DNA from: Desulfosporosinus nitroreducens
GTDB lineage: Bacteria; Bacillota; Desulfitobacteriia; Desulfitobacteriales; Desulfitobacteriaceae
DNA: 64,000 nucleotides
NCBI RefSeq assembly: GCF_023897015.1
Contig: NZ_JAMHFY010000010.1
Coordinates: 62,001-126,000 of the forward strand
Direction: 5' to 3'
This document shows positions 2,063 through 48,319 of the stretch, piece after piece; positions within the stretch are counted from its first letter, which is position 1, and every line of letters begins with the position of its first letter. The position numbers were made by a program, and so were the translations under genes. Below the pieces are notes generated by a model. That model was not told the DNA's origin. It saw nothing but the letters and a program-made list of their open reading frames with translations, and searched no databases.

Positions 2063-3148
2063 ATGAATGTAGTTCTTGAAAAATTACCACCAGGATTGTT
2101 TTTACAAAAACTAGCCCCCGTGGACTTGTTTGATACCAGTGGTCTTCTTTTATTAACAAGAGGGCAGCTAATAACAGATAGGGTCAGGGAACGATTGGTA
2201 AGAAGCGAGGTTTACACTTTAATATCTGAGAAAGATCATGTCAATTCATCTGGTACTGAGTTAAAGACTTTTCCAAGAGATCTTTATTTGGACATTGTAG
2301 GTTCAATATGGAGTATTTATCATGATACAGGGCTAATTACATCGGAGCAAATAGCCCAAACGATGGTTCTTATAGAGTTGATTATTATGGAAATTAACGG
2401 TAAATGGATGTGCATAGATAATGATTCTCTGCGAGTGGATTTGGCTAGTTTAAAAGAACATGACTACTGTACTTTTGTACACGCAGTTAATGTTGCTATT
2501 CTCTCTACAATAATCGCAAGAGGATTAGGCTATCAGGGGCAACGTTTAAGGTATCTGACAATGGGGGCAATCCTCCATGATATTGGGAAGATTAAAGTAC
2601 CCTGTGAAATTTTAAATAAGCCTGGGTTATTAAGTGAAAAGGAATTAATAATTATTAAGCGGCACCCTATTGAGGGAGAGAAAATGCTGCATAATACAGA
2701 TGTTTCACCAATTATATTAAATTCGGTAAGACTGCATCATGAACGTTGGAGTGGTAATGGATATCCCGATGGACTTAGTGGATCCCGAATCCTCCTTGAT
2801 GCCCAAATTATTGCGATAGCAGATGTTTATGATGCCCTAACGGCAGATCGACCTTATCGTAAAGCACTTCCACCTTATCATGCTCTTGAAATGATTTTAA
2901 CCATGGAAAAGGATTTTAATCCAATAGTTGTCACTGCATTTCGTAATTCCTTAAATCTATATCCTAAAGATACCTTAGTAACTTTAAATACTGGGGAAAT
3001 AGGTGTAGTTGTTGCTGTGCCGACTAATTTCCCGACGCGTCCACTTGTGAGACTTATGTTTGATTGCAATGGGAAATATTCAGATAAAGAAATTTATATA
3101 GATTTAATGAATGAGTTGACGTATTTTATTAAGAGTCCTTCAGTATAA
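2063..3148 (+). CDS. HD-GYP domain protein, probable c-di-GMP phosphodiesterase
   Basis: A 361-residue soluble protein. Residues 1-130 form an unrecognised N-terminal region shared with the second HD-GYP gene at 58429. The HD-GYP domain covers about 135-300, with HDIGK at 172-176, HHERW at 225-229 and GYP at 233-235, so the metal ligands look intact. A C-terminal segment of about 60 residues contains LNTGEIGVV, also found in the paralogue. The family hydrolyses c-di-GMP. The chosen ATG has GGAGG six bases upstream; an ATG 33 bp earlier has no ribosome site. It follows the Spo0F-like receiver by about 90 bp. Unlike its paralogue it has no recognisable riboswitch leader. Confidence 0.88.
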   Translation: MNVVLEKLPPGLFLQKLAPVDLFDTSGLLLLTRGQLITDRVRERLVRSEVYTLISEKDHVNSSGTELKTFPRDLYLDIVGSIWSIYHDTGLITSEQIAQTMVLIELIIMEINGKWMCIDNDSLRVDLASLKEHDYCTFVHAVNVAILSTIIARGLGYQGQRLRYLTMGAILHDIGKIKVPCEILNKPGLLSEKELIIIKRHPIEGEKMLHNTDVSPIILNSVRLHHERWSGNGYPDGLSGSRILLDAQIIAIADVYDALTADRPYRKALPPYHALEMILTMEKDFNPIVVTAFRNSLNLYPKDTLVTLNTGEIGVVVAVPTNFPTRPLVRLMFDCNGKYSDKEIYIDLMNELTYFIKSPSV

Positions 3149-3159
3149 TTCGAGAACAA

Positions 3160-3189
3160 TTGATAATTTGGAGATGGTAAATTTATATA
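3160..3189 (+). promoter_or_regulatory. Possible sigma-A promoter for mch
   Basis: TTGATA (3160-3165) and TATATA (3184-3189) with an 18-bp spacer lie about 65 bp before the mch start. The match is moderate only. Confidence 0.4.
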
Positions 3190-3252
3190 AGACATACTAA
3201 AAATGGATAAGATAAAGACATGTTAAGAGAATGATAGAAAAGGAAGAATAGC

Positions 3253-4221
3253 ATGTCTTTTCCAAATACACAACAATCCAAACTAAGTCCAAATCGCCAA
3301 GCATTTCCTTTAGTTAACGAATTTATCCTGAAGAGCAAACTTCTGAGGGTTGGAGTGAAAAAACAAAATGAGGTAACTGTAATAGACTGCGGAGTTCAAG
3401 TACAAGGCAGCTGGGAAGCTGGCGTTTTGTTTGCTGCAGTCTGCCTCGGCGGGTTGGCACAGGTTAAAATACATTGGTTAGACTTTAGCGGGTTTCGCTG
3501 GCCCACGGTGGAGGTTGTTACTGCTCATCCGGTTCAAGCTTGCCTGGCGTCTCAATATGCTGGCTGGCCTATCAAAAATGGCGATTTAACCGCAATGGGT
3601 TCCGGACCAGGGCGTGCCATTATTCATCAGGGCAGTCTGTATGACAGGAATGGATACAAAGATTATTCGAAGACGGCCGTTATATGTCTGGAAAGTGAGG
3701 AGCTCCCAACTGCGGCCGCAGTCCAATACTTAGTAGAAGAATTAGGGTGTGAGCCTAAGGATCTCTATATTTTGGCAGCTCCAACCGCGTCTCTAGCGGG
3801 TTCAGTCCAGATAGCTGCACGGGCTTTGGAAACGGGTTTATCTAAGCTTGCTGTACTGGGGTATGATTTAGAAAGAATAGATTCTGGCTGGGGAACTTGT
3901 CCGCTTCCGCCTGTTGCAGGCAGTAACCTCAATGCTTTAGGAAGGTCAAATGATGGGATACTTTATGGTTCTACAGTACTTTATAATCTTAAAGATAATG
4001 ATAAAACCTTAGATTCGTTAGTAAATCAAATTCCGTTCTGTTTTTCTCGGGAATATGAACGGCCTTTTATAGAAATCTTTGAGGAATATGGGGATTTCTA
4101 TAACATTGATCCCATGGTATTTAGCCCTGCCGAGGTATGGTTATGTAACTTGAATAGCGGGCGTTCTTTTCATGCTGGGGGCTTACGTCCGGACCTTTTA
4201 CGCAATTCATTTGGGATATAA
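3253..4221 (+). CDS. mch: Methenyltetrahydromethanopterin cyclohydrolase, archaeal type
   Basis: The 322 residues match the length of Mch, which interconverts methenyl- and formyl-tetrahydromethanopterin in C1 metabolism of methanogens and some methylotrophs. Visible family signatures are IDCGVQVQGSWEAG (about 44-57), HPVQACLASQYAGW and AMGSGPGRA (about 115-123), plus a C-terminal NLNSGRSFHAGGL. The ATG follows GGAAG weakly. It appears monocistronic and no other methanopterin-pathway gene is visible in the window. In a Gram-positive anaerobe this is unexpected: it may use a different pterin such as tetrahydrofolate, or be a laterally acquired gene with a changed role. Confidence 0.85.
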   Translation: MSFPNTQQSKLSPNRQAFPLVNEFILKSKLLRVGVKKQNEVTVIDCGVQVQGSWEAGVLFAAVCLGGLAQVKIHWLDFSGFRWPTVEVVTAHPVQACLASQYAGWPIKNGDLTAMGSGPGRAIIHQGSLYDRNGYKDYSKTAVICLESEELPTAAAVQYLVEELGCEPKDLYILAAPTASLAGSVQIAARALETGLSKLAVLGYDLERIDSGWGTCPLPPVAGSNLNALGRSNDGILYGSTVLYNLKDNDKTLDSLVNQIPFCFSREYERPFIEIFEEYGDFYNIDPMVFSPAEVWLCNLNSGRSFHAGGLRPDLLRNSFGI

Positions 4222-4252
4222 GATCTTCTGCCTAAAGATAGACAGAAGATCT
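4221..4252 (+). terminator. Hairpin after mch, possible weak terminator
   Basis: A 10-bp inverted repeat, AGATCTTCTG (4221-4230, its first base the last base of the mch stop codon) and CAGAAGATCT (4243-4252), follows mch immediately. There is no clear T-run, so termination would be weak or factor-assisted. Confidence 0.4.
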
Positions 4253-4293
4253 ATATCTTGAAATTGACTAGATCGAATAAAGTATGGTAAGAT

Positions 4294-4590
4294 TTAATTT
4301 GTTCCGAGTAAATCAAAACTATATAGTTCTCTATCGCTTAATTCAATTTTTTGAAGCGGAGAAACCAATTTAGGGGTGAATCCTTCGCAGTATGTTTTCA
4401 GATTTGCGAGGGTAGGGTTACTTTTCAATCCGAATCCGTCAGCTAACTTCGTAAGCGTTGAAAGGGAGGAACCAATGGCATGATCTAGCTTTGCTTTGCA
4501 ATCTATAGGTCTTAATTGGCTGAACCTTTGACAATAGTCGGGGTTTTTCTTGATTTTAGGGTCACTTAAGTAAGTGGAGGTTATTTAAAT
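4294..4590 (-). pseudogene. Open frame without start, possible frameshifted tail of the gene at 4562-5137
   Basis: Ninety-eight codons on the minus strand are open from just after a stop at 4591-4593 down to TAA at 4294-4296. The product is protein-like, for example FGLKSNPTLANLKTYCEGF, but contains no ATG or GTG start and only late TTG codons. The frame begins right where the membrane-protein gene on the same strand stops (4562), offset by one frame. The simplest reading is a frameshift that cut off about 90 C-terminal residues. It could also be a chance open frame. The rest of the 340-bp gap (4222-4561) holds only the mch hairpin. Confidence 0.35.
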
Positions 4591-5137
4591 AGTTCAAAAT
4601 GTTCTCTTTCTCACTTATTTCGACGTGAATTAGTGGTTGTTGTTTTCCTGCAATGACCCCAGCCCATTTAAGATAAATTGTTTGGTTATAGGATTTATGA
4701 ACAATAGGATCAGCGTAGCTTAGGCTAATGATGATAAAATGGGGATGGATATTGGCTTCGTCTAATACTTTGTCTTTGAGGTTAAGAAGTAAACTTGTGG
4801 TTGTATCCCTGGGAATATCATTTACAACGGTATAATCGTCAATAAGAATGGGCTTTTCTAACAACTGTTGCTCAAAAACTATGATTCTACTTGAAAGAGT
4901 TGTTGCAGGATGGGTCCCAACGTTCTTGAATCTGAATTCAAATTCGAAACTTGATTCCTTTGTAAAATGGAGTGAAGGAGATTCGATAAAGGTCAAATAT
5001 GGGCGTGCCGCTTCACGCTGTATTTTCCAGGTAGTAACAGAAATATATACAGAAATTAGAGAAACGAGGGCAAAGATTAGAGTAGATATTGTGACGACGG
5101 AGCCTGACCAATTCCAATTTTTAAAGTTCCAAGACAT
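4562..5137 (-). CDS. Membrane-anchored protein of unknown function
   Basis: 191 residues with one N-terminal transmembrane segment (about 14-36, VVTISTLIFALVSLISVYIS), followed by a domain of about 150 residues that looks beta-rich (FEFEFRFKNVGTHPATTLSSRI). The pattern FKNVGTxPA is typical of small proteins with an immunoglobulin-like or DUF-type extracellular domain, but I do not recognise the family. The ATG at 5137 has only a weak purine-rich stretch upstream. The gene may originally have continued into the open frame at 4294-4590. Confidence 0.65.
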   Translation of the reverse strand: MSWNFKNWNWSGSVVTISTLIFALVSLISVYISVTTWKIQREAARPYLTFIESPSLHFTKESSFEFEFRFKNVGTHPATTLSSRIIVFEQQLLEKPILIDDYTVVNDIPRDTTTSLLLNLKDKVLDEANIHPHFIIISLSYADPIVHKSYNQTIYLKWAGVIAGKQQPLIHVEISEKENILNYLNNLHLLK

Positions 5138-5405
5138 GCTTGCCCCCTTATTTTGAACATCTTATTTTGTTAATATATATTAATTAATTAAGGGAAAAAT
5201 TCATTTGCTTTCCAAATTAAGAAAGCTGTCTTAACCTGAAGAGTTTACGCGGAAGTATAAGTCGATTATATTTCAAGCGGCACAGGGTATGATTTAAGAA
5301 TAGGCATTGCGAACAACCTTGTATACTATAATACAGAATCTACAATAACAATGACATATTACGATAGGCACTTAAGATATAAAAAAATTTAGAAAGGGAG
5401 ATTAT

Positions 5406-6773
5406 ATGAATTATGTTAATATGAATTTGTCTGAAGAGAATACATTGACCAAGTTGAGCAGAATGGCTGAAGAAAGTGGTTTTATTAAACCTGAATTATA
5501 TAGGAAATATGAAGTAAAGCGGGGGTTGCGTGATTTAGATGGAAAAGGGGTACTTGTTGGCTTAACAGAGATCGGTGAGGTCCATTCGTACATTATGGAT
5601 GAAGGGGAAAAGGTTTCTGTCCCAGGACGTTTAATATATCGAGGTATAGACATCAGAGATATCGTAATGGGTTTTATTGAAGATAATCGCTATGGGTTTG
5701 AAGAGACAGCCTACTTGCTGCTTTTTGGAAATCTACCAGATCTTAACGCACAAAAGGAATTTGAGCAACTTCTTTCACTTTATCAAAGACTCCCGGAAGA
5801 TTTCACTCGCGATGTTATCCTAAAGGCACCAAGCAAAGATATCATGAACACGCTAGCAAGAAGTGTTTTGGCATTATATTCCTTTGACGAAAATCCAGAT
5901 GATACATCTATGCAAAATGTTTTAAAACAATGTCTGAGGCTGGTTGCTTGTTTTCCATCCTTGGCAGTTTACGGATATCACGCCTTAAGCCATTACCATG
6001 GAAGCCAAAGTCTTTATATCCATAGTCCCCGGGCTGATTTAAGCATTGCTGAGAACATCTTAGCTATGTTGAGACCGGATAGTAGTTATACTCAGTTAGA
6101 GGCAACACTGCTGGATCTGGCTCTCGTTCTTCATGCCGAGCATGGTGGAGGGAATAACTCATCATTTGTCACTCATGTTGTTACTTCTACTGGTACGGAT
6201 ACCTATTCTGCTATGGCGGCAGCAATTGGAGCGCTTAAAGGGCCGCGACATGGAGGAGCCAATATTAAAGTTGTTCAAATGTTTGAAGATATGAAAGAAA
6301 AATTAAAGGATTGGGAGGATGACGAGGAGATAGAGCAATACCTTACGCGCATCCTCTCCAAGGACGCATTTGATCGTACTGGCTTAATCTATGGGATTGG
6401 GCATGCAGTATACTCAATATCGGATCCTAGGACAGTCATTCTTAAAGGTTATGTTTCTCAACTGGCTCAAGAAAAGGGACTGGAAGATGAATTTAATCTC
6501 TATGCTAAGGTTGAGACCTTAGCGCCTCAGGTTATTTCAAAGTTTAATACAATGTATAAGACTGTAAGTGCCAATGTCGATTTCTACTCAGGTTTTGTAT
6601 ATAAAATGCTTAATATCCCAATGGAAATGTTTACACCGATTTTTGCAATTTCTAGAATTGTTGGTTGGAGTGCTCATCGCATCGAAGAAATCGCTAACAG
6701 TGGAAAGATTATTAGACCGGCTTACAAAAGTGTAGCTCCGAGACGAAGTTACCTTAGGATGAATGAGAGATAG
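5406..6773 (+). CDS. gltA: Citrate synthase
   Basis: 455 residues. Condenses acetyl-CoA and oxaloacetate to citrate, the entry to the TCA cycle or to glutamate synthesis. The catalytic residues are in place: H282 in GPRHGGAN, H333 in GIGHAVY and D392 in NVDFYSG. R80-G-I-D is the conserved YRGxD site. A long N-terminal extension of about 70 residues is typical of the longer clostridial type. AAAGGGAG lies before the ATG. A 2-methylcitrate synthase role cannot be excluded from sequence, but no propionate genes are nearby. It has its own terminator and so is monocistronic. Confidence 0.92.
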   Translation: MNYVNMNLSEENTLTKLSRMAEESGFIKPELYRKYEVKRGLRDLDGKGVLVGLTEIGEVHSYIMDEGEKVSVPGRLIYRGIDIRDIVMGFIEDNRYGFEETAYLLLFGNLPDLNAQKEFEQLLSLYQRLPEDFTRDVILKAPSKDIMNTLARSVLALYSFDENPDDTSMQNVLKQCLRLVACFPSLAVYGYHALSHYHGSQSLYIHSPRADLSIAENILAMLRPDSSYTQLEATLLDLALVLHAEHGGGNNSSFVTHVVTSTGTDTYSAMAAAIGALKGPRHGGANIKVVQMFEDMKEKLKDWEDDEEIEQYLTRILSKDAFDRTGLIYGIGHAVYSISDPRTVILKGYVSQLAQEKGLEDEFNLYAKVETLAPQVISKFNTMYKTVSANVDFYSGFVYKMLNIPMEMFTPIFAISRIVGWSAHRIEEIANSGKIIRPAYKSVAPRRSYLRMNER

Positions 6774-8901: not shown

Positions 8902-9444
8902 ATGAGTAATGGTAAAGAAGGTATCAAAGAATTAAAATCTCTAGCCGCTGAAGATGTTCGGGCTGATATGGAGGTAGCCATGGAATTAGGGCAGTTGAAA
9001 GATCAATTTTATCGGATGGAGCAAGCCTTTTCCACCTTCAAGAATCAGACTCAACAGAGTTCCCAGGGTCAAACACAACAATCTCAGGATCAGGGGCAAC
9101 AACAATTAAATCAATTAGTACAACATATGACTCAATTTAAGACCCAGTCACAACAACAGCAACAACAAGCTTTTACTCAATTGCAACAAACCATACAACA
9201 AGGTATGCAAGCCTTGAACCAAGCAAATCAATATATTCAATCAACTCAAGTTCTAACTCAAATGAATAATTTTATTGAACAAGCTCAACAACAACTTCAA
9301 ACTATGACTCAAAATCCGCAGCAAGGTCAAGGGCAACAAGGGCAGGCTCAGGGTCAAGGTCAAGGTCAACAAATGTATGGTCAAGGCCAAGGTCAAGGCC
9401 AGCAAATGCAACAAGGACAACAGGGTCAAGGATGGTTTCAGTAG
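8902..9444 (+). CDS. Glutamine-rich low-complexity protein
   Basis: 180 residues, of which I count 64 glutamines (36 percent). Residues 1-45 are an ordinary charged helix (KELKSLAAEDVRADMEVAMELG). Residues 46-140 are Q-rich with probable coiled-coil propensity and a run of six Q (83-88). Residues 141-180 are repeats of GQ and GQQ. There is no signal peptide or TM. The ribosome site AGGAGG lies at 8890-8895. I do not recognise the family. Composition resembles prion-like or phase-separating domains, and small Q-rich proteins of spore-formers can be coat-associated; both are guesses. It is flanked by terminators on both sides. Confidence 0.8.
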   Translation: MSNGKEGIKELKSLAAEDVRADMEVAMELGQLKDQFYRMEQAFSTFKNQTQQSSQGQTQQSQDQGQQQLNQLVQHMTQFKTQSQQQQQQAFTQLQQTIQQGMQALNQANQYIQSTQVLTQMNNFIEQAQQQLQTMTQNPQQGQGQQGQAQGQGQGQQMYGQGQGQGQQMQQGQQGQGWFQ

Positions 9445-9716: not shown

Positions 9717-9723
9717 TTCGACA
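9717..9723 (-). promoter_or_regulatory. Candidate Spo0A box upstream of the agr-like cluster
   Basis: TTCGACA on the plus strand is an exact TGTCGAA on the minus strand, the Spo0A-box consensus (TGNCGAA), 77 bp before the first gene of the cluster. A 7-mer like this is expected several times by chance in 64 kb, so position and the sporulation-like kinase in the cluster are the only supporting context. Confidence 0.3.
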
Positions 9724-9799
9724 TTTAGAGTGTGCGATAATAACAATTAATATCTGGTAGTTAGGGTTATGGCGTTATATCAACTTCAGAGGGAGTTAG

Positions 9800-10249
9800 A
9801 TGAAGATTCCTATGATTATTTTACTCTTACAAGGAATACCTGAAGGAACTGCACTTACGGCTCTAGCTTTTGTGATTTCTAGAATTCCTCTAAAACTCAA
9901 ACAGATTCTATTGGTTGGGACTGCTTTAGCCGTTTGTGTGAATATAATAAGACTGTTTTCTATCCCTATGGGTCTTCATACTATTTTGGCAACCTTGATC
10001 TTGTTTTTAATTCTAACTAGATTAAGTAAGGGGGATGTCGGTCTATCCTTTATAGCAAGTATGTTGAGCTGCCTAACTCTAATAATATTTGAGACAGCTT
10101 GCTTACCTTTGTTAAAGCCTGTTTCTATTTTAGCACCAAAAACTTTATCAACTTATCATGCTGTTAGGATCATATTAGGAGATATTCATGTCCTTCTTTT
10201 ATTTATCTCAGCTTTTCTACTAAAAAAAATCATTTCTAACAAGAGTTAA
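9800..10249 (+). CDS. Small multi-TM protein A of the agr-like cluster
   Basis: 149 residues, nearly all hydrophobic, with about five TM segments (about 3-27, 33-53, 58-75, 79-104 and 125-145). A signature LLLQGIPEG sits in the first helix and GLHTIL before the third. It is a clear paralogue of the next gene (LLLQGIPE, A/S-RIPLK, GLHTIL, KGD, SLIAS). GAGGGAG precedes the ATG. The length and hydrophobic pattern resemble the N-terminal sensing part of AgrC-type peptide receptors without a kinase domain. That likeness is an inference; I cannot name a family. Confidence 0.75.
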   Translation: MKIPMIILLLQGIPEGTALTALAFVISRIPLKLKQILLVGTALAVCVNIIRLFSIPMGLHTILATLILFLILTRLSKGDVGLSFIASMLSCLTLIIFETACLPLLKPVSILAPKTLSTYHAVRIILGDIHVLLLFISAFLLKKIISNKS

Positions 10250-10311
10250 AGGTTCCCTATTCGTCAATTTCAATATTTAGGTCTTCTAATGTTGACGTTT
10301 AGTACGAGAGG

Positions 10312-10779
10312 TTGTGTGATATTATTAATATTCCTTTCATTGCTTTACTCTTACAAGGCATACCTGAACAAATTGCAGTTGTAACTTTAGCTTGTGTAAT
10401 TGCCAGAATACCTTTAAAGTGGGAAAAAATTATTATGTCTGGTATCATTTTAGCATTTGTTTCGTATGCAGTAAGAATGTTTATCATCTCCTTTGGTCTT
10501 CATACTATTTTATTAGTCGTTATATTATTTATAGCTTTAACTTGGCTAGGTAAGGGGGATTTTAGTTTATCTCTTATTGCAAGTTTATTAAGTTTCTTAG
10601 CTTTAGTAATCATTGAATTTGTTTGTCTATCGCTGTTAATGCCTGTTTTTGGAATCACACCTGAAAAGTTATTCCCCAACTTGGTTATAAGGATTGTGAT
10701 AACAGAACCGCAAGTATTTCTCATATTTATCTGTGCGTTTTTATTGAATAAGTTTATGAAAACGAGGTGGGAAGTATGA
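10312..10779 (+). CDS. Small multi-TM protein B, paralogue of protein A
   Basis: About 155 residues with five predicted TM segments, aligned throughout with the preceding protein (ALLLQGIPEQ, VIARIPLKW, FGLHTIL, GKGDFSLSLIAS). No ATG lies in a sensible position. The TTG at 10312 is only one base from the AGAGG at 10306-10310. Alignment with the paralogue would place the start at an ATT near 10321-10324, so initiation is unusual or inefficient. Its stop overlaps the agrB start (ATGA at 10776), which indicates coupling of this membrane protein to the peptide processing enzyme. Confidence 0.7.
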   Translation: MCDIINIPFIALLLQGIPEQIAVVTLACVIARIPLKWEKIIMSGIILAFVSYAVRMFIISFGLHTILLVVILFIALTWLGKGDFSLSLIASLLSFLALVIIEFVCLSLLMPVFGITPEKLFPNLVIRIVITEPQVFLIFICAFLLNKFMKTRWEV

Positions 10780-11369
10780 ATTTTTCTGAGAATATTAGCA
10801 ATAGACTTACTGAACTAATAACAAATGAACTAAATTATAACGAAGATAAGAAGGAGATTATAACATATGCCATTGAAACTGCACTATTATTTGCCTTAGG
10901 CTCATTATTCTTGATAGTTTTAGGATATTCTTTTAATGCGTTAATGCCAACTGTTAATGCTGCCGTTTTTGGAGGCTTATTAAGACGAGTATCAGGTGGG
11001 GCACATTTTAATACCCCTCTTAAATGTTTGGGTTTTGGTTCTATAGTATATATTTCTATAGGAATGCTTTCGAAAAAAATTGTTGATTATGACTTAACAA
11101 ATCAGTATGTTCTTATTAGTTGTTTGCTTGTTTCTCTTTTACTTGTAGCTTTCCTAGCTCCTGTAGACAGCGAAGCAAAACCAATCCATTCTAGTAGCCT
11201 GAAATTTAAACTCAAGATTGCATCAATGGTTTTTGTAATTATTTCGTTCTTATTAATTTCTTTTATTGATAATAAATTAGTAAATGTTAGTGTAGTTTTA
11301 GGTGTAGTTTACCAAAGCCTAACCCTTCTGCCTATTTTTAATAGGGAAGGAGGTGAGTATAGATTATGA
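10776..11369 (+). CDS. agrB: AgrB-like peptide processing membrane protease
   Basis: 197 residues, integral membrane. AgrB proteins cleave the C-terminal tail of the AgrD precursor and help form the thiolactone ring of the autoinducing peptide. The family core RRVSGGAHFNTPLKC places catalytic H77 and C84 at the same numbers as in Staphylococcus aureus AgrB (from memory). Several TM helices follow (about 35-65, 85-105, 112-132, 150-170). The ATG has GAGGTGG at 10764-10770; a GTG 9 bp earlier is less likely. Both ends overlap neighbours through ATGA junctions, giving a tight operon ending in agrD. Confidence 0.93.
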   Translation: MNFSENISNRLTELITNELNYNEDKKEIITYAIETALLFALGSLFLIVLGYSFNALMPTVNAAVFGGLLRRVSGGAHFNTPLKCLGFGSIVYISIGMLSKKIVDYDLTNQYVLISCLLVSLLLVAFLAPVDSEAKPIHSSSLKFKLKIASMVFVIISFLLISFIDNKLVNVSVVLGVVYQSLTLLPIFNREGGEYRL

Positions 11370-11488
11370 AAAGGTATTTGCTAGTTGCAGTTGCCTCCTT
11401 CCTTATGCTCCTAGCTAGTGCAACCTCTGTTTTTGCGTGTGGATTTTGGGCATATCAGCCTAAAACTCCGAAAGCATTGCAAAGATGA
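11366..11488 (+). CDS. agrD: AgrD-like cyclic autoinducer precursor peptide
   Basis: A 40-codon gene with AAGGAGGTGAG at 11347-11356 and an ATGA overlap with agrB. The N-terminus (1-24) is a hydrophobic amphipathic helix ending in VFA. Then come C25-G-F-W-A29 and a tail YQPKTPKALQR. The tail matches the AgrB-recognised motif of clostridial AgrD (HQPEEPKSL type, PKEL in staphylococci). By that alignment the mature signal is a five-residue thiolactone ring, C25 to A29, with AgrB cutting before Y30. Any N-terminal extension left on the ring cannot be predicted. Confidence 0.92.
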   Translation: MKRYLLVAVASFLMLLASATSVFACGFWAYQPKTPKALQR

Positions 11489-11519
11489 TTCGAGGGTCAT
11501 AAACACATTTCGTTGCCAA

Positions 11520-11560
11520 CAATATAAGGAGCTGGGTGGATATCCCAGCTTCTTATATTG
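11520..11560 (+). other. Long RNA hairpin between agrD and the kinase gene
   Basis: Seventeen paired bases (11520-11536 with 11544-11560; core AGCTGGG/CCCAGCT, one G-U pair) around a 7-nt loop. There is no T-run, so it is not a standard terminator. It separates the highly translated agrBD part from the kinase part and would hide an alternative GTG start at 11536 with its AAGGAG, which supports the ATG at 11620 as the real kinase start. Confidence 0.75.
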
Positions 11561-11619
11561 CAATAAGCTTTCATATGCCTACTTGTTTTTCTATTTTTGG
11601 ACAGCTGGAGGATAACTTG

Positions 11620-13404
11620 ATGGCTATTAATATCAAAGATATTTTCAAAAGACAATCTATTCTTCAATCTACTTTATTTAAAGTAATTTTTAGTATTTTT
11701 GCTTTTCTTATTTTATTTATACTTCTTTATGGACAGAATTTTTGGGAGAAACAAGCACTAAAATTTAATTACGATTTATTGTTAAATGCTTCAGGAGTTC
11801 AAACAAAAATACAATCTATGATTTTGGACATAAAAGAATTAAAAAGAGATAATAATTTAACGAAGGATAATAAAATTATAAAAATAAATGAAGTTATCCA
11901 GTTAATGCTTAATAAAAATGATAATTATATCATAGGTTATTATGATAATGAATTAGATTTAGTTGTTAAAGAACCAGAACCATATAGTGATGCTATTTCA
12001 TGTGAGGAAATTCGCTTTGAAATAGTATCATCACTAAGCGAACCTAATAACATATCAAATAATGACAGGGAAATTAGGGCTATCCTACCAATATATGATC
12101 AGGGAATAATAGTAGGTTATGTTTGGGCCTATGCTCAGGATGCTGATTTAGTATTAACGTCATTTAATGAATTGAGCGCAATAGTAATACTAGCTTTAAC
12201 TTTATCAGTATTAATTATAATTTCAATCAGAAATCATATGAAGCAGATTGAATTATATTTAGAAAGATTTTGCACAATTATAATGGATAATAATAGTGAT
12301 CATGAAAATATTTTAATTAAATTACCAGAATTGAAACCTGTTTTAAATAAGATCACTTGTTTTACAGATGATTTAAAACAAGTAAACGTAGCCTTGGAAG
12401 CCTCAAAACTTAACATAATTAAAATTATGGAAGGGATTTCAGACGGGTTTTATGCCTTAGACCGCAATGTGCAGTTTACCTTTATTAACAAGGAAACACA
12501 AAAGTTTATTGGCGGGAATAATGTTGAACTTATAGGAAAAAGCATATGGGAAGTATTTCCAAATATTAAAGGTTCTGTAACTTACGATAAGATATACGAA
12601 GCAATGTCTCAAAATGAATCAGTTCATTGGGAAGCAGAAGGCTTAGCAAACCCTGATCAAAACCATGAATTTCATGCTTACCCCTATAACGAAGGCTTGA
12701 CAGTATTTTTCAGAGATATAACGGAGTTGAAACGACAGCAACAAGAGCTTGATCGGTTAGAAAGGCTTAATCTGATCGGCCAATTAGCAGCTGGAATCAG
12801 CCATGAAATAAGAAATCCGCTAACGACTGTCAAAGGTTTTTTACAGTTTTTTGGTGCAAAATCTCAATACATAAATGATAAAGAATATCTGGATTTGATG
12901 ATTTCTGAGATTGACCGTGCCAATACAATAATAACTGACTTTTTATCTTTGGCGAAAGCAAACTCAGATAATATCATGCGCCAAAATATTAATGAAGTTA
13001 TTAATAAAGTTTTACCTATGATCCAAGCCGATGCTTATAACAATAACAAAGAAGTTATTGTAGATTTAAATCTGGTGCCGGATATTATGATCAATGAAAA
13101 TGAGATAAAACAACTTATTTTGAACTTAGTTCGTAATGGATTAGAGGCCACTGCGGAACGGGGATGTGTTAAAATTAGCACCTATCTAAAAGAGGATAAG
13201 GTTGTTTTAGAAATTAAGGATCAAGGAGATGGTATTCCTCAAGAAATACAAGGGAAAATGGGCACTCCATTTTTCACAACAAAAGACAGTGGTACAGGTC
13301 TCGGGCTAGCAATATCTATTGGAATTGCTCAAAGACATGGAGCTGGTTTCGAATTTAAAACAGGGAACAGCGGAACAGTTTTTTATACAACTTTTACTTC
13401 TTAG
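11620..13404 (+). CDS. Membrane PAS-domain histidine kinase of the agr-like cluster
   Basis: 594 residues: TM1 (about 19-37), an extracytoplasmic region of about 147 residues, TM2 (about 185-205), PAS (about 262-370), HisKA with H395 in AGISHEIRNPL, then HATPase with LNLVRNGLEA, DQGDGIP and GTGLGLAI. This is the NtrB/sporulation-kinase type, not the AgrC (HPK10) type usually found beside agrBD. No response regulator gene follows; the next gene is convergent. It may phosphorylate a distant partner such as the Spo0F-like receiver at 1593. The ATG has GGAGG about 8 bases upstream. Confidence 0.9.
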   Translation: MAINIKDIFKRQSILQSTLFKVIFSIFAFLILFILLYGQNFWEKQALKFNYDLLLNASGVQTKIQSMILDIKELKRDNNLTKDNKIIKINEVIQLMLNKNDNYIIGYYDNELDLVVKEPEPYSDAISCEEIRFEIVSSLSEPNNISNNDREIRAILPIYDQGIIVGYVWAYAQDADLVLTSFNELSAIVILALTLSVLIIISIRNHMKQIELYLERFCTIIMDNNSDHENILIKLPELKPVLNKITCFTDDLKQVNVALEASKLNIIKIMEGISDGFYALDRNVQFTFINKETQKFIGGNNVELIGKSIWEVFPNIKGSVTYDKIYEAMSQNESVHWEAEGLANPDQNHEFHAYPYNEGLTVFFRDITELKRQQQELDRLERLNLIGQLAAGISHEIRNPLTTVKGFLQFFGAKSQYINDKEYLDLMISEIDRANTIITDFLSLAKANSDNIMRQNINEVINKVLPMIQADAYNNNKEVIVDLNLVPDIMINENEIKQLILNLVRNGLEATAERGCVKISTYLKEDKVVLEIKDQGDGIPQEIQGKMGTPFFTTKDSGTGLGLAISIGIAQRHGAGFEFKTGNSGTVFYTTFTS

Positions 13405-47550: not shown

Positions 47551-47710
47551 AAAGGGAATCTTTATTAAAGAATAAATATCATTGTAAAATAATTATTAAT
47601 AGAGTAGAATATTAAATAGGAAATATTCTAGAAACATACCGGGTCATGATTGATAATAGTTATATATCAATGATACTTAGGTATTGGAGAGAAAGAGGGT
47701 CATAAAGTTT

Positions 47711-48319
47711 ATGAGAGAGACCTTTCACCCCCCTACGGATTATTATTGTGAATCATTAGCACCAATTGATGAGGAGATCTGTGCTCTCATTGCCAAGCGG
47801 AAAGTGCTTTCTGAAAACAATCCGGGATTTCCGAGTCTCAATTTAATAACAACATGGTGTAACCGACATGAACTGAACGAAAAAATGATCAAGAGCCTTT
47901 TTGGAACCATATATAATGAGAACAACTTTTTAGACCATTTCCAAGTAGAACCCACAAGATTTCTAAAGTACGTATCGATATTAAAATGGGTAGAAATTGA
48001 AAGTGTGTTGTATTCGGTTACGCACATGAAACAATACAACAACGCCAGTGTAGTTTATATTGAATATGAAGTTAATAACTCTGAGCCACATGTAAAGCTT
48101 GGGCATGCCCGAGTAGAATTGTTTATCTCACCTGACTATCAATGTCAACAATATCGCGGTAACGGGCAAGACAAAGGGATGCAGTATTCATTTAAGGTGA
48201 TACCACCGTTGCCTGACGATGTAACGGGTCTTGAGTTTCGTCTTAGTATAAAACCATTCCCTGAAATTCCAGAGATGCAAACAGTTAACTTATCAGAATC
48301 TACTGTGATCATTAAGTGA
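47711..48319 (+). CDS. Protein of unknown function with helical N-terminal domain
   Basis: 202 residues. The N-terminal part (PIDEEICALIAKRKVLSENN) has the short-helix pattern seen in chorismate-mutase-like or AroQ-type segments, but no catalytic set is evident. The C-terminal half is beta-rich (VEIESVLYSVTHMKQ, VVYIEYEV, HARVELFIS). I do not recognise a family. The chosen ATG has GAGGG 11 bp before it; a TTG 27 bp earlier is possible. It stands alone after the lipoprotein operon. Confidence 0.7.
   Translation: MRETFHPPTDYYCESLAPIDEEICALIAKRKVLSENNPGFPSLNLITTWCNRHELNEKMIKSLFGTIYNENNFLDHFQVEPTRFLKYVSILKWVEIESVLYSVTHMKQYNNASVVYIEYEVNNSEPHVKLGHARVELFISPDYQCQQYRGNGQDKGMQYSFKVIPPLPDDVTGLEFRLSIKPFPEIPEMQTVNLSESTVIIK

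Follow-up and report, generated by a model that had tools for sequence, protein, structure and literature searches.

How is an agr-type peptide signal read when the cluster that makes it carries no AgrC receptor? This question is raised by a set of five genes in a 64,000-nucleotide stretch of the Desulfosporosinus nitroreducens genome (assembly GCF_023897015.1, contig NZ_JAMHFY010000010.1, positions 62,001 to 126,000), hereafter called the window. According to the open reading frames (ORFs) called in the window, the cluster occupies positions 9800-13404 and encodes, all on the plus strand, two small transmembrane (TM) proteins, TM1 and TM2, followed by AgrB, AgrD and a sensor histidine kinase (Table 1). 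A canonical AgrC, in which the sensor region and a GHKL/HPK10 kinase form one chain, is not in the cluster, which has stand-alone modules and a HisKA kinase instead; likewise, we found no GHKL kinase gene in the cluster and no LytTR regulator (AgrA) at the locus. We propose, with a probability of about 0.72, that the cluster encodes agr-type quorum sensing in which the receptor has been split and rewired to an orphan kinase.

The genes for signal production were readily recognized. AgrB matches PF04647 with 122.8 bits (cut-off 23; E 1.4e-35) and has both catalytic residues, His77 and Cys84, at the same numbers as in S. aureus AgrB. The agrD gene directly adjoins agrB, and its product matches TIGR04223 with 33.1 bits (cut-off 19). 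By likeness to known precursors, which sets the boundary, the ring peptide is predicted to be C-G-F-W-A, followed by YQP. ATGA overlaps join TM2 to agrB and agrB to agrD, and gaps of 62 bp and 131 bp lie between TM1 and TM2 and between agrD and the kinase, respectively. The ORFs and their Pfam and NCBIfam matches agree with a preliminary description of the locus, drawn from the sequence alone, which listed two five-TM proteins, AgrB with H77 and C84, AgrD and a PAS-HisKA kinase, with ATGA overlaps. It had also noted that neither AgrC nor LytTR lies beside the cluster, and indeed all three LytTR genes in the genome are on other contigs.

TM1 and TM2 are related to each other (49% identity, E 6e-36), and both fall below the cut-off of every Pfam and NCBIfam family. 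An AlphaFold2 model of TM2, based on an alignment of 50 sequences, has five long helices (residues 9-30, 37-55, 61-79, 84-113 and 124-154) with a mean predicted local distance difference test (pLDDT) score of 93.9. We used a wide module alignment and profile of 31 sequences (A2), any one curated family being matched by at most three of them, to search 398 genomes of the phylum. At E <= 1e-5 the profile matched 150 of these genomes, fused receptors included. Some of its matches are frames of about 150-215 residues that stand alone; others form the N-terminal end of longer frames, of about 440-496 residues. TM1, itself a row of the alignment, scores 153.3 bits, compared to 137.1 bits for the fused frame L059 (also a row) and 123.5 bits for a fused frame outside the alignment (G185:C3).

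The fused frames reveal what the module corresponds to. Six fused receptors (L202-L205, L059 and L065) contain a GHKL kinase and adjoin both AgrB and a LytTR regulator. In 11 split loci the module and the GHKL kinase are separate proteins; placed one after the other, these align collinearly with the fused receptors over the full length, and the boundary between the two genes falls right behind the five-helix part. Because the two forms share the A2 profile and align collinearly, we equate the module with the sensor region that AgrC-type receptors of clostridia carry. Judged by these alignments, we conclude that the stand-alone module is homologous to the N-terminal sensor region of that receptor family.

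We compared the window with two relatives, G018 and G019, using as background mechanically called ORFs of at least 100 residues that matched over 70% of their length. Relative to G019, protein identity is 53.1% for TM1, 70.5% for TM2, 72.1% for AgrB and 75.0% for AgrD, compared to a median of 98.2% over 41 downstream ORFs (5th percentile 93.2%, lowest 56.4%). The values for G018 are 52.4, 71.2, 70.6 and 75.0%, against a median of 97.1% for 24 ORFs, two of which had low, paralogue-like matches of 23-26%. The kinase itself is divided: its outer domain is 68.8% identical to that of G019 (65.6% for G018), compared to 92.9% (98.2%) for the PAS domain, 95.5% (94.3%) for HisKA and 90.3% (88.8%) for the HATPase domain. 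DNA directly upstream of TM1 is divergent too (64-72%), and 13.3 kb of downstream DNA is 96% and 94% identical to that of the two relatives. Between themselves, G018 and G019 share 98.7% identity in TM1, 98.0% in TM2, 98.4% in AgrB, 92.2% in the kinase ectodomain and 93.7% in the kinase core, and both have the same ring, TFWA. Thus, whole blocks differ as alleles. From the pattern of protein identities in these three genomes, we conclude that the allele block spans TM1, TM2, agrB, agrD and the outer half of the kinase.

Distances between loci show the same association. Even with the distance of the kinase core removed, those of TM1, TM2, AgrB and the ectodomain are correlated with one another (partial r 0.61-0.75, p 0.0005, n=12) in a set consisting of the window and those loci among L033-L050 that have two TM rows longer than 100 residues, an AgrD and a kinase of at least 550 residues, with L046 left out as a near-copy of L044. 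Of all our results, the allele block speaks most strongly for a role of both modules, and of the outer half of the kinase, in recognizing the signal.

The genes of the cluster also stay together in close relatives. Among 40 genomes (D. nitroreducens included), the module and AgrB occur together in 29 and neither occurs in 10; the remaining genome, with TM only, is 67% complete and has the TM gene at a contig end. The kinase adjoins in 22 of the 26 loci examined (L033-L058), and the remaining four are truncated by the end of a contig. Within the 22, the kinase is cut by a contig end in L033 and L055 and is in two pieces in L050. The pieces in L050 (G016, 2942-6407) lie about 1.6 kb apart, as if split by an insertion. 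Gene order in the genus is TM-agrB-agrD-kinase, and in another family of the same order it is kinase-TM-agrB-agrD. A collection scan added 30 named loci with the same arrangement wherever the contig suffices, except for L120-L125, in which other kinases or GGDEF proteins replace the kinase.

Searching the same 40 genomes with the sensor-to-PAS part of the kinase gave a matching picture: the best full-length matches adjoin agr genes where the contig allows, and in four genomes (G001, G005, G021 and G022) the match lies on a separate contig of a fragmented assembly. Agr genes are absent from G008 and G015, and no full-length kinase match was found in G008 among the matches listed. Longer kinase relatives of 872 and 881 residues occur at L086 (G011:C41) and L087 (G006:C81), in fetched stretches without agr genes.

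The window's kinase has PAS_4, HisKA and HATPase_c domains and thus the PAS-HisKA-HATPase_c architecture of the KinA-E type. Against the KinD equivalog NF053867 it scores 162.1 bits, short of the curated score of 775. A model of its ectodomain (pLDDT 77.9) has a sole match in the PDB at E <= 0.001, a WalK-YycH model (E 7.4e-6); weaker matches are to sensor domains of kinases and chemoreceptors, and the B. subtilis KinD sensor appears at E 0.035. Spo0A_C matches the genome five times, and two of these matches are strong, at 148 bits.

Across the phylum, we fetched 76 loci with stand-alone modules (L126-L201) from 71 genomes, five of which contributed a second locus, taking them in rank order among the matches listed rather than at random and leaving out genomes already fetched and two matches equal to L120 and L122. 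The module call of L176 was lost, so that counts are over 75 loci. Of these, 61 have AgrB on the same strand and no more than 3 kb away. The preliminary description had suggested searching for the five-TM proteins beside agrBD in other clostridia, and with 29 of 40 genomes holding both and 61 of 75 stand-alone loci near AgrB, they are not found mostly away from it.

In 72 of the 75 loci, a signalling enzyme is encoded no more than 1.5 kb from the module or AgrB, on the same strand. Of 268 flanking genes that lie 2.5 kb or more away, 4 have such an enzyme within 1.5 kb, a null that is somewhat stricter because it was measured from one gene. Thirty-three loci have a GHKL kinase (17 with LytTR), 20 have a GGDEF or GGDEF-HD-GYP protein and 2 more have such a protein together with a six-helix HisKA kinase, 17 have a HisKA kinase without GGDEF (2 of the window's type) and 3 have no enzyme. 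These classes come from home-made profiles built on few sequences; for the six proteins checked, Pfam confirmed GGDEF plus HD (L123 and L125), PAS-HisKA (L121 and L122) and SPOB_a/GHKL (L061 and L065). One group of the HisKA kinases shares with the GGDEF proteins a six-helix membrane region. Its profile gave 60 matches at E <= 1e-20 in the 398 genomes, of which 53 are beside a module or AgrB (43 from the listed module matches and 10 more once the other 17 were fetched), 3 are at contig ends and 4 have neither. Both phylum surveys lean to agr-linked members, because all rows of the underlying alignments (31 in A2, 20 in A6) come from loci around such clusters.

Six-helix GGDEF or GGDEF-HD-GYP proteins are encoded downstream of stand-alone modules in L121, L123, L124, L125, L127-L129, L134, L136-L139 and others, and at such loci a direct route from agr to cyclic-di-GMP is possible. 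No agr-type GGDEF-HD-GYP partner was found elsewhere in the D. nitroreducens genome, whose one weak six-helix match (E 1e-6) is a HisKA kinase beside a REC protein. Two modules, a Cache-PAS-HisKA kinase and a GGDEF-HD-GYP protein occur in one agr locus in L106, L110, L112 and L117 (same locus as L054). A rule of one module per output enzyme was considered and dropped, as it is contradicted by loci with one module and two outputs (L105 and L134) and by loci with two modules and one output (L127, L137 and L171).

When the eight output labels are mapped onto a tree of 103 AgrB proteins, 17 changes are required, compared to a mean of 61.9 after shuffling. Loci of the window's type (27) and of a mixed kinase/GGDEF type (5) are nested among GGDEF-type loci in starred sets of 34, 36 and 39 rows. 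The tree is quick and unrooted with many weak branches, and its nesting suggests that the kinase was gained beside a GGDEF protein that was later lost.

Taken together, these results lead us to the following model. AgrB would trim AgrD and cyclize it into the predicted CGFWA ring. The sensing part that forms the N-terminus of AgrC would be made here as two separate five-helix proteins, TM1 and TM2, which would recognize the ring peptide and relay their state through the membrane to the neighboring kinase, acting on its membrane segments and outer domain. The outer half of the kinase would belong to the same recognition unit. With no regulator gene alongside, the kinase probably feeds an orphan-kinase pathway. 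We infer peptide binding by TM1 and TM2, their contact with the kinase, and Spo0A as a plausible target. More broadly, we lean toward the view that the module is a general detachable receptor for cyclic peptides, which docks as a separate protein on the membrane region of unrelated classes of enzymes.

Several observations weigh against the split-receptor model. The TM2 model has no PDB match at E <= 0.001, and the best E of the module sequence profile against the PDB is only 0.19. Likeness to staphylococcal AgrC is marginal: the best E against NF046015 is 0.033, and three of the 31 sequences of A2 reach E <= 0.1. In partial Mantel tests on the 12 loci with the kinase core removed, the four residues of the ring were not significantly associated with TM1, TM2, AgrB or the ectodomain (p 0.10 to 0.50). 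Sensor domains of kinases often evolve faster than their cores, and variation of the ectodomain alone is therefore weak evidence. Distant relatives of the outer part of the kinase are found away from agr (G011:C41, G006:C81 at 35%, G015:C11 and G036:C186 at 27%). Finally, 14 of the 75 stand-alone loci gave no AgrB on the same strand up to a distance of 3 kb, although 13 of these still have a signalling enzyme nearby.

The same data could be explained without a split receptor if the kinase sensed the peptide by its own ectodomain, with TM1 and TM2 assisting AgrB in processing or export or protecting the producer. The position of the ectodomain within the hypervariable block (65.6-68.8% identity, compared to 92.9-98.2% for PAS) would fit, as would the finding that the best full-length kinase matches adjoin agr genes. 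We consider this unlikely, since AgrC-type receptors join this same module to a GHKL kinase in one chain and since the module lies near enzymes with very different outer parts, even in all but one of the loci where AgrB was not found; the constant element across loci is the module, not the ectodomain. For these reasons, the role in immunity or export that the preliminary description offered for the small membrane proteins gained no support. Its other suggestion, receptor modules split from a kinase, is strengthened by the N-terminal place of the module in fused receptors, its proximity to signalling enzymes and its allele-like variation with AgrB, AgrD and the kinase outer half. Alternatively, one module, most likely the faster-changing TM1, might act as a decoy or dampener, by titrating the peptide or by entering silent complexes, and leave the other as the only receptor. 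Two copies are indeed present in many Desulfosporosinus loci, and TM1 is the least conserved protein (53%) and falls in its own starred clade of Desulfosporosinus first copies, in which 8 of 12 rows are labelled first; the other 4 carry the label single, their partner having been removed by a length filter. Other loci, such as L041 and L052, are single-copy, however, and the loci in which two modules go with two outputs (L106, L110, L112 and L117) could mean that modules are paired with outputs, so that a decoy seems improbable. Neither rule for module number is general, because of the five exceptions to pairing named above.

It is also conceivable that the kinase is an uninvolved neighbor and that the peptide is read by a GHKL kinase and a LytTR regulator encoded together on contig C95, without agrB. 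This pair does exist in the genome, and VirS is proposed in PMC7492741 to be the Agr peptide receptor in C. perfringens. Nevertheless, the window's kinase accompanies the cluster in both gene orders, whether encoded upstream or downstream of it, the allele differences extend to its outer half, and the A2 profile found no module in the C95 kinase, all of which make this reading very improbable. The other two LytTR genes lie between PAS proteins (contig C11) and beside a LytS-like protein (contig C2). We considered a normal AgrC elsewhere in the genome and inspected the C95 pair; agrB has a single match in the genome and the sensor module has two, with no third copy found by the TM2 query at E <= 10 or by the A2 profile at E <= 1e-5. 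The preliminary description had allowed that a normal AgrC/AgrA pair elsewhere might answer the peptide: the lack of a third sensor module counts against this, and a GHKL/LytTR pair is nonetheless present.

The split-receptor model can be placed among known systems. As in S. aureus agrBDCA, the locus combines an AgrB bearing His77 and Cys84, an AgrD-family precursor and a hypervariable block, which in S. aureus lies within agrB, agrD and agrC (PMC12312760). Unlike that system, the Desulfosporosinus locus has no AgrC polypeptide or LytTR regulator; the sensor region is present as two free proteins, and the PAS-HisKA kinase has an outer domain. The fused AgrC-type clostridial receptors (L059, L065 and L202-L205) have the same module at the N-terminus, beside AgrB and, in L059 and L065, AgrD, but they unite it with a GHKL kinase in one chain and have a LytTR regulator alongside. 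In split loci with TM and GHKL genes, some with LytTR (such as L061-L064, L066 and L146), a stand-alone module lies beside AgrB and a kinase; that kinase is the expected remainder of AgrC (SPOB_a/GHKL in L061), whereas the window's kinase is unrelated.

Some clostridial agr loci lack agrC and agrA (PMC12312760). The agrBD-only loci of C. perfringens and of C. difficile (agr1) likewise have no adjacent agrC or agrA and are linked to sporulation in PMC10602386, but their receptor lies elsewhere, as proposed for VirS (PMC7492741), or, for AgrD1 of C. difficile, is called elusive (PMC10602386). Among the literature matches listed, which covered few subscription papers and preprints, no title or abstract start describes loci of the type reported here. 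Membrane partners that steer a kinase as separate proteins are familiar from the WalK-YycH/YycI type. Judging from the PDB match of the ectodomain model, the window's kinase may resemble WalK, a TM-outer-domain-TM-PAS-HisKA kinase steered by such partners. YycH and YycI are not known to be peptide-receptor modules.

Table 1. Genes and spacer of the agr-type cluster, in window coordinates.
Feature	Position	Strand	Description
TM1	9800..10249	+	149 aa stand-alone membrane protein, homologue of the AgrC sensor region
TM2	10312..10779	+	155 aa, second stand-alone five-helix module; TTG start in ORF list
agrB	10776..11369	+	predicted peptide-processing membrane protease; H77, C84; PF04647
agrD	11366..11488	+	40 aa precursor; TIGR04223
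agrD-kinase spacer	11489..11619	+	holds 17-pair hairpin at 11520-11560
Orphan sensor histidine kinase	11620..13404	+	594 aa; TM, extracytoplasmic PAS/Cache-like domain, TM, PAS_4, HisKA, HATPase_c

The hairpin in the spacer between agrD and the kinase (z -3.1 compared to shuffles) has no T-run on the plus strand and is terminator-like on the minus strand only; it is possibly a site of attenuation or processing. A promoter scan found 19 sites, compared to a shuffle mean of 19.0, and so gave no excess. Just 5' of the cluster, positions 8902-9444 encode a 180-residue glutamine/glycine-rich protein with a sub-threshold match to EzrA only; few of the relatives examined encode it next to the agr genes. 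Further downstream, a 211-residue ORF without a Pfam match (47684-48319) is 56% identical to its G019 counterpart, compared to 96-98% for its neighbors.

If the module is indeed a detachable receptor, its partner classes would comprise GHKL kinases, Cache-PAS-HisKA kinases, six-helix PAS-HisKA kinases and six-helix GGDEF-HD-GYP proteins. In that case agr signals could act directly on phosphorelays or cyclic-di-GMP, and outputs would be rewired in evolution by a swap of partner, with receptor and signal retained. Our analysis names a testable candidate class of receptors that lies below every Pfam and NCBIfam cut-off in the sequences tried, and it suggests two direct output routes for agr, one through an orphan PAS-HisKA kinase, possibly to sporulation, and one through cyclic-di-GMP. 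Synthetic biology could also make good use of a receptor part that is transferable from one output enzyme to another.

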